NCBI RefSeq assembly: GCF_000143965.1 | Contig: NC_014365.1 | Span: 2,879,501 to 2,943,500, forward strand | Source of the DNA: Desulfarculus baarsii DSM 2075 | GTDB lineage: Bacteria; Desulfobacterota; Desulfarculia; Desulfarculales; Desulfarculaceae | Direction: 5' to 3' | DNA: 64,000 nucleotides | Shown here: positions 3,952 to 40,924 of the stretch, in pieces | Layout of the letters: every line of letters starts with the position of its first letter | Numbering within the stretch: the stretch's first letter is position 1 | The notes under the pieces: generated by a model | Told to the model about the DNA's origin: nothing | The model's database searches: none | The model's input: the letters and a program-made list of their open reading frames with translations, nothing else | Program-made: the position numbers and the translations under genes

Positions 3952-5648
3952 GCGCCGGCCTCCGCTTGGATCGAGGACCAGTCGAAGATGCCTGGCACGG
4001 GAGAGGCCTGGCCAGCGTGGAGCATGGCCCGGGAGAGGGCCATGATGGCGGCCACGATGCCGTCGATCTTGTTTTCGGCGCGCTCCTTGCCGGGGTAGTA
4101 GGCCTTGGTCCTGGTGGAGCGCAGCACCACGTTGGACGCCTGCCAGGTAAGCAGCGGGTCGCCGTCATGGTGCAGCTTGCCCGAGAGATAGAGGGCCTCG
4201 AATTCCTTCATGGGCTCGGAGATGAACGCCGGAGACTGGTTGATCTCGATGCAGGAAAAGGACACCCGCTCGCGGATTTCCTGCATGAGCATCTCGGCCT
4301 CGCGCGGGTCGTAGGCCAGCTCTCGGATGGAGAATCGATCGGCGTAGGCCAGCAGGTCGTCCATGAGGTAGCGGTAATCGGTGCGTGCGCCGGGCGTGGC
4401 CACCAGATGCCCCTCGGCCGTCCAGCGCTGGTAGTGGGCGTTTTCGGGAAGGGTGACCGTCTCCTCCGGCAGGTAGTGTCTGCCGAAGAGATAGAACTCG
4501 TCGCCACGTTTGAAGATCAGCACCATGGCCGTGAGGTCCACCTTGGAGGCCAGGTCCACGCCGACCCAGCAGGGCTCGCCCGCGAAGTCGTCCAGGGAGA
4601 CGTCCGCCCGGCAAGCGTTCCATTTGACCATGTTGATCCAGGCGGATCCGGCGTTGGACCAGACGTTGAGGTGCTTGCACTTGAGGATGTTCTGGCGGGA
4701 GGCGATCTGAATGGCCTCCTTGCGCCGCGCCCGCAGAAAATCGGGATAGATGGACACGCCCAGGTTGGGGTTCGCCTTTTCCCAGGAGACCCAGTCGGTC
4801 CAGTCGTCGCCATCGTCGATGGTATAGATGACGGTGAAGAGCTGGTCGTTTTCCAGGGTGCCTTCGAGGACTTTCACCGCCTCGTCGCGCTTGGCGTAGC
4901 AAGGCCCGGAGGTATCCACCCCGGCGGTGGTGATAACCGCCAGCATGGGCTGGGAGCGCGCGCCCATGCCGGTGAGCATGGTGTCGTAGAGGTCGGGCGT
5001 CTGGTGTTCGTGGTATTCGTCCACGATGGCGCAGTGGGGCGAGGCCCCGTCGCCGGGCTTGCCGATGACCGGCTCGAACTTACTGGCATTGTCCAGGATA
5101 TGCAGGTTCTTGGCCCCCACATGGATGCCGAAATGGCTGATGAAAGAGGGATTCTTGAGGCACATCTGCCGGGCCGGACCGAAGACCTCCCAGGCCTGCT
5201 TCTCGCTGGTGGCCCCGGAATAGACCTCGGCCCCGGGTTCGCCGTCGGCCGCGAACATGTACAGGCCCAGGCAAGCCCCCAGCACGGACTTGCCCGCCTT
5301 GCGGGGAATCTCGGCGTATATCTCGCGGAAGCGGCGCAGGCCGTCCGACTTGCGCAGCCAGCCGAAGGTGACGCCCAGGAGGAAGCACTGCCAGTTCTCC
5401 AGCACCAGCTTCTTGCCCGCCCATTCCCGGCCTTTGACGTGGACCATGTTGGAAGCGAAGCGACAGACCCTGTCAGCCGCCGCCTTGTCCCAGCGGTAGG
5501 GGTAGCCCTTGGACTTGGACCGCTCGAACTCGTCCATATGCCTCTGGCAGGCCAGACGCACATACCGGCAGGCCACGACCTTCCCGCTGACGACATCCCG
5601 GGCGTATCGGTTGGCCATCGAGGCGAATGGGTAAGCGGACCGTGCCAT
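3948..5648 (-). CDS. terL: Large terminase subunit (packaging ATPase-nuclease)
   Basis: This 566-residue motor would translocate DNA into proheads and cut the concatemer. The ATPase Walker A region is IPRKAGKS (residues 114-121) and Walker B is CAIVDEYH (206-213) with the catalytic Glu. The nuclease domain begins at GVDLASKVD (363-371), whose Asp365 is a likely metal ligand. I chose the ATG at 5648, two bases after the small-terminase stop; an in-frame ATG at 5672 would add eight residues and overlap that gene. The sequence fits the HK97/phiC31-like terminase group (Terminase_1). The gene is intact. Confidence 0.93.
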   Translation of the reverse strand: MARSAYPFASMANRYARDVVSGKVVACRYVRLACQRHMDEFERSKSKGYPYRWDKAAADRVCRFASNMVHVKGREWAGKKLVLENWQCFLLGVTFGWLRKSDGLRRFREIYAEIPRKAGKSVLGACLGLYMFAADGEPGAEVYSGATSEKQAWEVFGPARQMCLKNPSFISHFGIHVGAKNLHILDNASKFEPVIGKPGDGASPHCAIVDEYHEHQTPDLYDTMLTGMGARSQPMLAVITTAGVDTSGPCYAKRDEAVKVLEGTLENDQLFTVIYTIDDGDDWTDWVSWEKANPNLGVSIYPDFLRARRKEAIQIASRQNILKCKHLNVWSNAGSAWINMVKWNACRADVSLDDFAGEPCWVGVDLASKVDLTAMVLIFKRGDEFYLFGRHYLPEETVTLPENAHYQRWTAEGHLVATPGARTDYRYLMDDLLAYADRFSIRELAYDPREAEMLMQEIRERVSFSCIEINQSPAFISEPMKEFEALYLSGKLHHDGDPLLTWQASNVVLRSTRTKAYYPGKERAENKIDGIVAAIMALSRAMLHAGQASPVPGIFDWSSIQAEAGA

Positions 5649-5650
5649 GC

Positions 5651-6106
5651 TCAATCCCTGAACCCCGTCCATTCGTCATCCCTGTCCTTGGCTGGAACAG
5701 CCACGATGCGCGAGCGGCTCGATGGCGTGAGCCCAAACTCGGTCAGGAACTTGTGCATGATCTCCATGGCCCGGTTGGCCACGCCGATAAGCGGATTCTG
5801 AATCACGTTGCCGCCCGTGGTCTTGATCAGAAGCCCCGACTGGCGGATTTTCGTCTCAGCCTCGACAAAGCGTTCGAAGGCTTGGCAGTAGGCGGCGAGC
5901 GCCGCGTCGTCGCCTTCGCTGAGCACGCCCATGCGCATGAGCACCGGCGCCTTGCGATCCCATTCCTGGCGGGCAACCTCGCCCAGAAACTCTGGCGGCT
6001 CCGGGGCGGCCACGGGCGGCCTGGGCTCGCTGGGGTTCAGGCGGCAATTCTGGGCCGTGCCTTTCAAGAGCTTCAGGCCGGTGGGCAGAGGTTTACGGCC
6101 GGCCAT
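5651..6106 (-). CDS. terS: Small terminase subunit, P27 family
   Basis: A 151-residue protein opening with AGRKPLPTGLKLLKGT, the recognisable start of P27-type small terminases, which bind the packaging site and recruit TerL. A Pro-rich linker (about residues 28-40) and a helical body follow, ending in an acidic tail. The ATG at 6106 has AGGGAA seven bases upstream; an in-frame ATG at 6133 is less likely. TerL follows two bases after the stop. Upstream lies a divergent RelE/XRE module, so transcription must start in the 6107-6161 gap or read through from the methylase genes. Confidence 0.88.
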   Translation of the reverse strand: MAGRKPLPTGLKLLKGTAQNCRLNPSEPRPPVAAPEPPEFLGEVARQEWDRKAPVLMRMGVLSEGDDAALAAYCQAFERFVEAETKIRQSGLLIKTTGGNVIQNPLIGVANRAMEIMHKFLTEFGLTPSSRSRIVAVPAKDRDDEWTGFRD

Positions 6107-37405: not shown

Positions 37406-37441
37406 CGGGGGCTCGCCAGACCGGCGGGCCCCCGCTTTTTT
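37406..37441. terminator. Bidirectional terminator between oadB and the 75-aa gene
   Basis: GGGGGCTCGCC and GGCGGGCCCCC pair around AGACC. The hairpin is followed by a run of six T on the plus strand and preceded by six A (T on the minus strand), so it can stop both convergent transcripts. Confidence 0.85.
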
Positions 37442-37459: not shown

Positions 37460-37687
37460 CTAGTCGTCCAGCCAGCGCTTGGTCTCCGCGGCCAGGGCGG
37501 CGATGAGCCCGGCCAAGCGGCGGCGGGCCATTTTGCCCACGGCGGCCATGTCGGCCCCGGCCGCGCCCTCGACGGTCACCGGCGTGTTGAGCACATAGTC
37601 GCCCAGGCGCACCTGGAACCAAACATTGGCCCCGCCATCGGAGCGCGCGTCGATCTTGGTCAGTTTGGCCGAAACGCGGTCGTCCAT
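37460..37687 (-). CDS. Small protein closing the hydroxylase-like operon
   Basis: A 75-residue protein starting at ATG 37687, 11 bases after the molybdopterin-subunit stop. It begins MDDRVSAKLTKIDARSDGGANVWFQVRLGDYVL and ends in a charged helix. A longer in-frame reading to 39028 lies wholly over the upstream gene on the same strand and is rejected. No family is recognised. Being last in the operon, it may be an accessory or maturation factor. Confidence 0.65.
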   Translation of the reverse strand: MDDRVSAKLTKIDARSDGGANVWFQVRLGDYVLNTPVTVEGAAGADMAAVGKMARRRLAGLIAALAAETKRWLDD

Positions 37688-37698
37688 GGCCACCCCCC

Positions 37699-39570
37699 TC
37701 AGCGAATGCGGCCCAGGGCGCGCAGGACGCCCTCGGGCGTGATGGGCAAGCTCCCGCAGACCGCGCCGCAGGCCTGGGCCACCGCCGCGGCCAAGGCCGG
37801 GGCCACGGCCAAGGCCGGGCCGCGTCCCAACTCGCCGGACGGGTCGGTCTCGGCCAGCCACTCCACGCTCTGGCGCGGGCAATCGATGGACGACGGCAGG
37901 CGATAGGCGTGGGCGTCGACGGGCCGGCCCGCGCGCCAGACCAATCCGGCCAAAAGCGCCCGGCCCACGCCGGCCTGGTTCATGGCCATCACCGATGGCG
38001 CGTCTGGCCGGCCCGCCCCGACCACGGCGCGCAGTTCGACCGCGCGAACCTGGCCCGTCTCGGCGTCGACTTCCGCCGCCGCCGCCAACGCGCCCACGCA
38101 GGGGGCTGGCGTCGGGCCCACGCCGCGTTGATCGCCCGCCGCGCAGGCCTGGGCCACGGCCTGGGCCATGACCGCCTCGCCAAGCATCAACCCGGCCGGC
38201 GGCTGGGGGCACAGGGCCGTATCGCCCACCACCACGCGCACCTCCGCCGGGGCCACGTTCAGGGCGCGGGCGGCCTCCTGGGCCAGCATGGTCGGCCGGC
38301 CGGCGGCGGCGAACAGGTTCACCGAGCCATCGGCCAAGCGCTCGACGCGGCACAGTTGGGCCGTTGGCGCGGCCGGCTGGGCCGGCCAGGCAAAGCAGGC
38401 CAAACCCACGCCGCGCCCAGGGCCGCCGTCCGCCGCCAGGTCCTTCAGGGCCTGGCCGGCCTTGGTCAGGCATTTTCGCAACGCCCCGTCGGCCGGGGCG
38501 CTCTGCATGCGCGCCTCCAGCGGGTCCAGGCCCAGTTGGCGGGCGGCCTCGCCCAGCAGGCCTTCCACGGCCATGGTCATGGCCCCGGCGCAGGCGGCCG
38601 GAGCCAGCAGGGCCGGCGGCGTGTTGGTGAAGACCTGGCGGACACGAAAGCGCCAGTCGGCCAAGTCGTAGGGGTGCGCGCCCAGCAGGGAAATCAGGTC
38701 GGCCGGGGCGCTCTGGGTCGCGCCGCCGTCGATGATCACGTCCAGGTCCAGGGCCAGCAGGCGGCCCTTGGCGTCGACGCCGGCCCGGCCCAGGGCCACG
38801 CAAGCGGGCAGCCGGCAGCCGGCGGCCACGTCGTCGGCCAGGGGCAAGACCAGCTTGACCGGCCGGCCGCATTCCAGGGCCAGTTGGCAGACCAGGCGCG
38901 CCGCCTCCAGTTCCACGGCTCCGGCCGGAACCTGGCCCATGGCCAGCACGCGCAGCCGGGCCGGGGTCAGGCCCAGGGCCGACGTCAGGGCCTCGCGCAC
39001 GGCAAAGGCCTGGCCGCGGTTGGCCCACAGGCGAACCCCGCCGCCCTCGGGCGCGGCCACGAAAGCCGCCGGCTCCAAACCGGCCAGACTCCAGGCCGGC
39101 AGATCGAAGCGGGCCATGACCACCTGATGAGCCCTGGACAGGGCCCCCTCCACGTCGCCGTGCTCACTGACGCCCCTACCCGCCACATTGCCGCCGGCCC
39201 GGGCCATGGGCGCGGATTCGTCAAAGGCGGCCTCGGCCTGCAAAAGCGGCGTTTGGGGCTCCATGGTCGCCTTGACGCGCTCGGCGGCCCGCTGGGCGGC
39301 CGCGGGGGTCTGGGCGCAGACGGCGGCCACGATCTGGCCGGCGTATTCCACCGCCGTCGGCAGGCTTGGCGCGGCGGCGACGGCCGCCAGCACGCCGGGC
39401 AGCTTTTTGATTTCATCCAGGTTCAAGGCGCCGAGGACGGCCCTGGGCTCGGTGGCCCGGGCCAGGGCGCAGTGCAGCATGCCCGGCAAGGTCAAATCGG
39501 CGGTCAGGGCCGCGCCGCCGGTCAGGGCCTGCCGGCTCGCCGCGCCGCCGTCATTGGCGAAAACGATCAT
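37699..39570 (-). CDS. Degenerate molybdopterin-binding subunit (xanthine dehydrogenase family)
   Basis: A 623-residue relative of XdhA/CoxL, shorter than the usual 750-800. The fold is recognisable: the hammerhead start (TLPGMLHCALARATEPRAVLGALNLDE) and the C-terminal SLPITPEGVLRAL. The canonical GGGFGGK loop is replaced by MGQVPAG (211-217). The catalytic Glu of GVGEGP is Arg583 in ELGRGP. It is coupled to the FAD subunit by four overlapping bases. Hydroxylase activity is therefore doubtful. Confidence 0.85.
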   Translation of the reverse strand: MIVFANDGGAASRQALTGGAALTADLTLPGMLHCALARATEPRAVLGALNLDEIKKLPGVLAAVAAAPSLPTAVEYAGQIVAAVCAQTPAAAQRAAERVKATMEPQTPLLQAEAAFDESAPMARAGGNVAGRGVSEHGDVEGALSRAHQVVMARFDLPAWSLAGLEPAAFVAAPEGGGVRLWANRGQAFAVREALTSALGLTPARLRVLAMGQVPAGAVELEAARLVCQLALECGRPVKLVLPLADDVAAGCRLPACVALGRAGVDAKGRLLALDLDVIIDGGATQSAPADLISLLGAHPYDLADWRFRVRQVFTNTPPALLAPAACAGAMTMAVEGLLGEAARQLGLDPLEARMQSAPADGALRKCLTKAGQALKDLAADGGPGRGVGLACFAWPAQPAAPTAQLCRVERLADGSVNLFAAAGRPTMLAQEAARALNVAPAEVRVVVGDTALCPQPPAGLMLGEAVMAQAVAQACAAGDQRGVGPTPAPCVGALAAAAEVDAETGQVRAVELRAVVGAGRPDAPSVMAMNQAGVGRALLAGLVWRAGRPVDAHAYRLPSSIDCPRQSVEWLAETDPSGELGRGPALAVAPALAAAVAQACGAVCGSLPITPEGVLRALGRIR

Positions 39571-40451
39571 CGGTCATCCCTCCGGGCCAATTCCAGGCAG
39601 GCCGCCAGCACGCGCCGGGCCAGAACCTGGGTCATCATTCTGCGATAAAAGGCCGAGGCCAGGTGGTCGTCGACCGGGCTGACGGCCCGCACGCAGGCCG
39701 CGGCCGCCCTGGCCAGCAGACTCTGCTCGGGGGGCATGCCCTCCAGCATGTTTTCAGCCTCGATGGCGCGCAGGGGCGTGGGGCCGGCCGCCGAGATGGC
39801 CAGACGCGCGCGGATGATGTTGCCGGCCGCGTCCAGGCTGACCAGTCCGGCCAGGCCCAGGGCCAGGCGGTCGGCGCGGCCGGTGGGGGTCAGGCGCAGG
39901 TAGCACGAACCGCAGCGCTTGGGCGGCGCGGGCACGCGGATGGCCTCGATGACCTCCATGGGCTCGCGCACGGTCTGGCCGGGGCCGGTGAAGAACTTGG
40001 CCAGCGGCACCTGCCGCCTGCCGCCGCGCTCGACCAAAACCAGGCTGGCCCCGTGGACCAAAAGCGGGGCGGCGCAGTCGGCCGCCGGCGAGGCCCCGGC
40101 CAAGTTTCCGGCCACGGTGGCCATGTTGCGCACCTGGGGCGTGGCCATCTGGTCGCAGGCCTGGGCCAGGGCCGGATAATGCCGCCGCACGTCGGGGTGG
40201 GCCGCCACCTCGGCGACCTTGGAGGTCGCGCCGACGACCAAACCGTCGGAGTCATAATAAGAAATGTGGTTCAGCCCGCCCACACGACTGACGCTGACCA
40301 CGTTGGCCGCCGTCAGGCGTCCCTCGCGCATGGCCGGAACGAGGTCCGTCCCGCCGGCCATGACCAGCACGTCGGTGCGAAAACGGGCCATCAGATCCAG
40401 CAGGGCCTCCAGGTTGGCTGGCTGGTGGTGGCTGAAACGTTGCTCGGCCAT
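39567..40451 (-). CDS. FAD-binding subunit (XdhB/CoxM family)
   Basis: A 294-residue flavoprotein subunit. The FAD pyrophosphate loops VMAGGTDLVPAM (about 30-41) and ATVAGNLAGASPAADCAAPLL are retained, so flavin binding is likely. The C-terminal CO-dehydrogenase flavoprotein domain is present (about 190-290). Overlaps on both sides are four bases or less, so all three subunits are coexpressed. It is the best-preserved part of the complex. Confidence 0.9.
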   Translation of the reverse strand: MAEQRFSHHQPANLEALLDLMARFRTDVLVMAGGTDLVPAMREGRLTAANVVSVSRVGGLNHISYYDSDGLVVGATSKVAEVAAHPDVRRHYPALAQACDQMATPQVRNMATVAGNLAGASPAADCAAPLLVHGASLVLVERGGRRQVPLAKFFTGPGQTVREPMEVIEAIRVPAPPKRCGSCYLRLTPTGRADRLALGLAGLVSLDAAGNIIRARLAISAAGPTPLRAIEAENMLEGMPPEQSLLARAAAACVRAVSPVDDHLASAFYRRMMTQVLARRVLAACLELARRDDR

Positions 40452-40924
40452 CAGCGGCCCTCCTTTTCGCCGTCGCCCAGGGCCTGGGCGATCTGGTCGT
40501 AGCCCAGCCCGGCCACGATGTTGCCGGCGATGTCGGCGCGGGCGCGGCCGATCGCCCCGCCCTTGCGCTCCTTGAGGGCGGCGTGGGCGGCCAGCGTCAG
40601 GCCGGGGGCGGCGAAGGGGTCGGCGGCCAGGCCCGCTCCGGCCAGGGCCTCCAGAAGCGGCGCGGCCTTGGCCTCGTCGGCCAGCAGGCCCTCGGCGGTG
40701 AGCACCTCACGCTTGTCGGCCTCCACGGCCAGCACCAGGCACGAACTGACCGGCTTGCCGTCCAACAGCACCGTGCAGCCGCCGCAGTGGCCACGGTTGC
40801 AGCCGATCTTGACGCCGGTCAGGCCAAGTTGGTCGCGCAGCAGCTCGGCCAGGCTGGCCCACGGCTCCACGGCCAGTTCGCGCACCAAGCCGTTAATGTT
40901 TATTTCCACGAGTTTTTTTGCCAA
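40451..40924 (-). CDS. [2Fe-2S] subunit lacking the second cluster
   Basis: A 157-residue iron-sulfur subunit of the CoxS/XdhC type. The plant-ferredoxin cluster is intact: GCNRGHCGGC then VSSCLVLA, with Cys42, Cys47, Cys50 and Cys62. The second, helical cluster should have CGFC and GNLCRCTGY. Here the latter reads GNIVAGLGY, so Val137 and Gly139 replace Cys, and the CGFC motif is absent. It begins the operon. Confidence 0.88.
   Translation of the reverse strand: MAKKLVEININGLVRELAVEPWASLAELLRDQLGLTGVKIGCNRGHCGGCTVLLDGKPVSSCLVLAVEADKREVLTAEGLLADEAKAAPLLEALAGAGLAADPFAAPGLTLAAHAALKERKGGAIGRARADIAGNIVAGLGYDQIAQALGDGEKEGR

Follow-up and report, generated by a model that had tools for sequence, protein, structure and literature searches.

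A molybdenum-hydroxylase-like operon of Desulfarculus baarsii lacking the molybdenum-cofactor motifs and the ligands of one [2Fe-2S] cluster

Results

Three coupled genes of the xanthine oxidase family

The window analysed here is a stretch of 64,000 nucleotides of Desulfarculus baarsii DSM 2075 (contig NC_014365.1, positions 2,879,501 to 2,943,500), and all coordinates count from its first letter. On its minus strand, from 40924 to 37702, lie three coupled genes that encode an Fe-S protein, an FAD protein and a shortened large subunit (Table 1). Their junctions overlap or abut, with TGATG and ATGA stop/start overlaps coupling the three open reading frames. Both Pfam and NCBIfam place all three proteins in the xanthine oxidase (molybdenum hydroxylase) family, with scores far under the equivalog cut-offs. 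The Fe-S protein matches Fer2 and, weakly and below the cut-off, Fer2_2; the FAD protein matches FAD_binding_5 (E 6e-46) and CO_deh_flav_C; and the large subunit matches Ald_Xan_dh_C, MoCoBD_1 (E 1.3e-32) and MoCoBD_2. The homologous three-subunit architecture of the family, consisting of a protein with two [2Fe-2S] clusters, an FAD protein and a MoCoBD large subunit, is therefore present, and an earlier note made from the sequence was right that all three subunits are there and tightly coupled.

A 75-aa ORF without a Pfam match is probably the last gene of the operon, and a terminator-like hairpin separates the operon from a convergent gene. Homologues of this ORF were found in two other genomes, at L106 (G304), where it follows a gene for a GGDEF-type protein, and at L107 (G297). 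Both are unlinked to molybdenum hydroxylase operons, and the ORF was therefore rejected as a candidate new subunit. No partner gene is evident near the operon in the window, and no publication on this D. baarsii locus turned up in literature searches.

Table 1 Features of the operon in window coordinates
Feature	Position	Strand	Remarks
Fe-S subunit	40454..40924 (ORF 40924-40451)	-	157 aa, TTG start
Plant-type [2Fe-2S] motif C42-x4-C47-x2-C50-x11-C62, retained	40739..40801	-	alignment
Lost CxxC site of the Mo-proximal cluster	40610..40621	-	alignment; CGFC in relatives, here DPFA
Lost CxC site of the Mo-proximal cluster	40508..40516	-	alignment; CRC in relatives, here VAG
FAD-binding subunit	39570..40451 (ORF 40451-39567)	-	294 aa
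AGGTDL motif of the FAD subunit, retained	40341..40358	-	alignment
Second conserved FAD-subunit motif TVAGNLAGASPAAD, largely retained	40077..40118	-	alignment
Large subunit, predicted Mo-free	37702..39570 (ORF 39570-37699)	-	623 aa, about 757 in relatives
Lost GGGFGGK site, here GQVPAGA	38917..38937	-	alignment
Lost RGFGAPQ site, here PAACAGA	38581..38601	-	alignment
Arg583 (CGC) replacing the conserved catalytic Glu of relatives	37822..37824	-	alignment, E583R
75-aa ORF	37463..37687	-	no Pfam match
GC-rich hairpin with T tracts, terminator-like	37406..37434	.	between operon and convergent gene

Which cofactor ligands are lost and which are kept

In the xanthine oxidase family electrons pass from molybdenum to Fe/S I, on to Fe/S II and finally to FAD. 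The ligands of each centre were compared with those in 13 intact operons that have this gene order and come from the same bacterial family. The Fe-S subunit is 41-48 % identical to the Fe-S subunits of these operons, and all four ligands of its Mo-proximal cluster (Cys102, Cys105, Cys137 and Cys139) are replaced, in agreement with the claim that the cysteines of CRC and CGFC had gone. That the protein lacks key residues holds for this cluster alone: the plant-type motif of Fe/S II, the flavin-side cluster, retains C42, C47, C50 and C62 and had been missed. These four are the only cysteines in the protein. Displacement of the lost ligands, the objection against which an alignment had been proposed, was rejected, as the Fe-S protein has no spare cysteine and the large subunit no substitute motifs. 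An AlphaFold model of the Fe-S subunit was of low confidence and too poor for use.

The FAD subunit is 54-63 % identical to its counterparts in relatives and keeps 87 of 105 invariant residues. Its FAD-binding motifs, AGGTDL and TVAGN...D, are kept. A patch of conserved residues at 188-200 is lost, and given this loss the flavin chemistry of the protein may be different.

In the large subunit every molybdopterin motif that was checked (GGGFGGK, RGFG and GQG) has gone, and arginine stands at the position of the catalytic glutamate near the C-terminus. Comparison with the 13 intact operons thus confirms both losses that had been read from the sequence. The net loss relative to these proteins is about 134 residues. 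The large subunit is nonetheless predicted to take the family fold: its AlphaFold model, which leans on an alignment of intact relatives, has a pLDDT of 74 and best matches the large subunit of 4-hydroxybenzoyl-CoA reductase (1rm6) with a TM score of 0.84.

Constraint changes at the cofactor boundaries

In relatives, conservation is highest in the large subunit, with a mean identity of 80 % compared with 78 % for the Fe-S protein and 68 % for the FAD protein. Between the window and these relatives the order is reversed: 55 % (51-58 %) for the FAD protein, 43 % for the Fe-S protein and 33 % for the large subunit. The terminal branches leading to the window proteins tell the same story (0.54 for FAD, 1.69 for Fe-S and 3.40 for the large subunit, where relatives reach at most 0.38, 0.19 and 0.16). 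The break within the Fe-S protein comes at the domain boundary, residues 1-75 being 59.7 % identical to relatives and residues 76-157 only 28.2 %; among relatives the identities of these two domains and of the large subunit are 77-83 %.

Genome contigs were scanned for close relatives in two separate searches, one with the large subunit and one with the FAD protein, and neither found a close relative. As a consequence a within-genus dN/dS was not computable, and selection was judged from one long branch by a cruder ratio, the composition-corrected divergence at second codon positions over that at fourfold sites against family members, which serves as a proxy for dN/dS and is not a codon-model estimate. 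With silent sites near saturation and each comparison including the relative's own branch, this ratio was 0.27 [0.07-0.48] for the plant-type domain (Fer2) and 0.58 [0.37-0.76] for the FAD protein, compared with 0.22 and 0.63 among relatives. The proximal-cluster domain (Fer2_2) reached 2.14 [0.86-4.99] and the large subunit 1.00 [0.73-1.39], compared with 0.37 and 0.43. On this rough measure the FAD protein and the plant-type domain are as constrained as in relatives, and the proximal-cluster domain and the large subunit are relaxed. The comparison shows a split in selection that falls at the cofactor boundaries.

The earlier note had proposed selection in a new role, and had named a dN/dS near one as evidence against it. 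Its view that the Mo and proximal Fe-S ligands were lost without simple decay is supported. So is selection, in a role either retained or new, on the FAD protein and the plant-type domain, where constraint equals that of relatives. By the note's own criterion the proposal fails for the other two parts, the proximal-cluster domain and the large subunit: their ratio is about one or above, and continued translation is indicated only by the unbroken frames and by deletions that stay in frame.

The frame of the large subunit

All frames are open, which had been taken as an argument against simple decay. Open frames alone make a weak argument, because the DNA is 75 % GC and long antisense frames also occur. 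The argument is strengthened by the pattern of deletions and by a neutral simulation. The large frame contains no stop and about 17 deletions (an alignment-inferred count that depends on the alignment), several of them large and all multiples of three; throughout the 1,074 codons of this highly diverged operon there is neither a stop nor a frameshift. In simulations that let an intact relative evolve to 33 % identity with no selection, at 60 runs per equilibrium GC, no stop-free frame survived at 0.66, 0.75 or 0.85 (0/60 each) and 5/60 did at 0.90. From the simulation and the in-frame deletions we infer that selection for translation has preserved the frame during at least some of its history, though few of its residues seem to matter.

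The composition of the large subunit has shifted. Alanine makes up 22.6 % of its residues compared with 10.6 % in the intact operon L088, and GC at codon positions 1/2/3 is 79/57/91 compared with about 62/44/95. The doubling of alanine and the ratio of about one are as expected of drift. A pseudogene would be expected to carry stops, frameshifts or a loss of constraint throughout; here the frames are open, FAD and Fer2 are constrained, and the loss of constraint is confined to Fer2_2 and the large subunit. All frames being open and aligned throughout, an error of sequencing or of frame was rejected. Chance is excluded as well, since operons with this gene order are intact and conserved in relatives.

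Origin and genome context

Intact operons of the same bacterial family (among them L088, L086 and L091) share the gene order Fe-S, FAD, large subunit. They keep both [2Fe-2S] ligand sets, all molybdenum-cofactor motifs and the catalytic glutamate, whereas the window operon does not. Their FAD proteins group with the window protein in a single clade, and two FAD-protein trees place the latter inside these operons, next to L088 (support 92 in one, 0.957 in the other). The window operon therefore descends from an ordinary molybdenum hydroxylase and not from a distant paralogue.

The D. baarsii genome is a single contig of 3,655,731 bases in which no second large subunit of the xanthine oxidase family was found; most genomes of the same family have 4-20 matches. 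It also has no match to XdhC, the cofactor-insertion chaperone, which is present in every sampled same-family genome having such enzymes. The best MocA-like match is weak at 48 bits, compared with up to 153 in relatives, in a family search that is not specific. Cofactor synthesis in this genome therefore probably lacks its cytosine-dinucleotide branch. MoeA_N likewise has no match in this complete genome (G000), compared with one to three MoeA copies in most relatives. The genome does hold MoaC and seven Molybdopterin-family oxidoreductases of another family, two of which carry an in-frame TGA (likely selenocysteine). The MoeA_N result would reflect either an unusual route of metal insertion, a divergent MoeA or masked sequence. 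In relatives, the intact operons are neighboured by DUF6125, PilZ, Fic, Fer4, DUF362, histidine kinase and permease genes, which give no consistent clue to the substrate.

Discussion

We lean slightly to the reading that the operon encodes what was once a three-subunit molybdenum hydroxylase, which lost its molybdenum-cofactor site together with Fe/S I, keeps the motifs of Fe/S II and FAD, and now works as an electron-transfer module. The simplest function that suits this combination of losses and retentions is an exchange of electrons between the flavin and one [2Fe-2S] cluster, an external partner standing in for the molybdenum half. We hold more tentatively a fuller version, in which the loss of the XdhC machinery was followed by conversion to a stable Mo-free FAD/[2Fe-2S] electron-transfer complex whose large subunit is a pseudoenzyme serving as scaffold. 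In either version FAD and one [2Fe-2S] cluster would be bound and the three proteins would assemble. Electrons would be exchanged between the single cluster and FAD, which NAD(P)H or some other carrier would feed. They would then reach a soluble partner bound at the place where the cluster was once shielded by the now eroded domain. The large subunit would remain as a scaffold devoid of cofactor, its sequence only weakly constrained. The state is known from this genome only.

A staged decay, in which the enzyme died once the insertion machinery was lost, the molybdenum half has drifted and the FAD/Fe-S half is to follow, leaving no function or a residual one, strikes us as unlikely but as the most serious rival. 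The ratios of about one or above in the large subunit and the proximal-cluster domain, the GC-driven drift in composition, the net loss of some 134 residues and a genome with neither a sister family member nor an XdhC match are all what it would predict. Against it, the FAD protein and plant-type domain are as constrained as in intact relatives, the whole operon is free of stops and frameshifts, and free drift of the large frame fits poorly with the simulation and with deletions that are all in frame.

A further reading is a binding or sensory role, in which the FAD protein and its [2Fe-2S] partner act as a redox sensor or a structural protein rather than as an electron-transfer enzyme. In two relatives an Fe-S and FAD gene pair is followed by a histidine kinase gene, and milk xanthine oxidoreductase has been described as serving a structural function in addition to its catalytic one (PMC3909206). 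Next to the window operon, however, there is neither a kinase nor a regulator gene, and both redox-cofactor motifs are conserved, so that we regard this role as improbable. The chance that the product is still a molybdenum enzyme with divergent ligands is very small: the large subunit does still score to MoCoBD_1 and MoCoBD_2, but all motifs and the glutamate have gone together, no cysteine substitutes for the ligands of Fe/S I, and the genome has no match to XdhC or MoeA.

The three-subunit architecture and the large-subunit fold are common to the window proteins, 4-hydroxybenzoyl-CoA reductase (1rm6) and the CO dehydrogenase CoxLMS/CutLMS (1ffu), the last being a solved family member without the Mo-pyranopterin part. 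Unlike the window proteins, which have lost the site itself, 1rm6 and 1ffu keep the cofactor-binding residues. Family proteins without molybdenum are otherwise represented by demolybdo milk xanthine oxidoreductase (PMC3909206) and by the xanthine dehydrogenase of an xdhC mutant, which has been reported to keep its flavin and Fe-S clusters without the molybdenum cofactor (PMC2997495), a result that speaks for the electron-transfer reading. In both of these an intact gene yields a protein whose cofactor is not loaded, whereas at the window locus the ligands and Fe/S I have been lost by evolution.

If the electron-transfer reading is true, a modular redox enzyme has been taken apart, its substrate-oxidising half separated from its electron-delivering half by a loss that stopped at a domain boundary inside one polypeptide. 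Whether an enzyme of the xanthine dehydrogenase type can be useful through its flavin half alone becomes testable at this locus. Automatic annotation as a xanthine or CO dehydrogenase would be mistaken here.

One genome of the same family (G118, 2.4 Mb) has no match to a molybdenum hydroxylase large subunit, XdhC, MoaC or MoeA and, from these searches, seems to have lost the use of the molybdenum cofactor altogether. The Fe-S and FAD gene pairs of the two relatives mentioned above, at L101 (G302, 4657-6059) and L102 (G305, 599-2076), are intact and stand with no adjacent large subunit.
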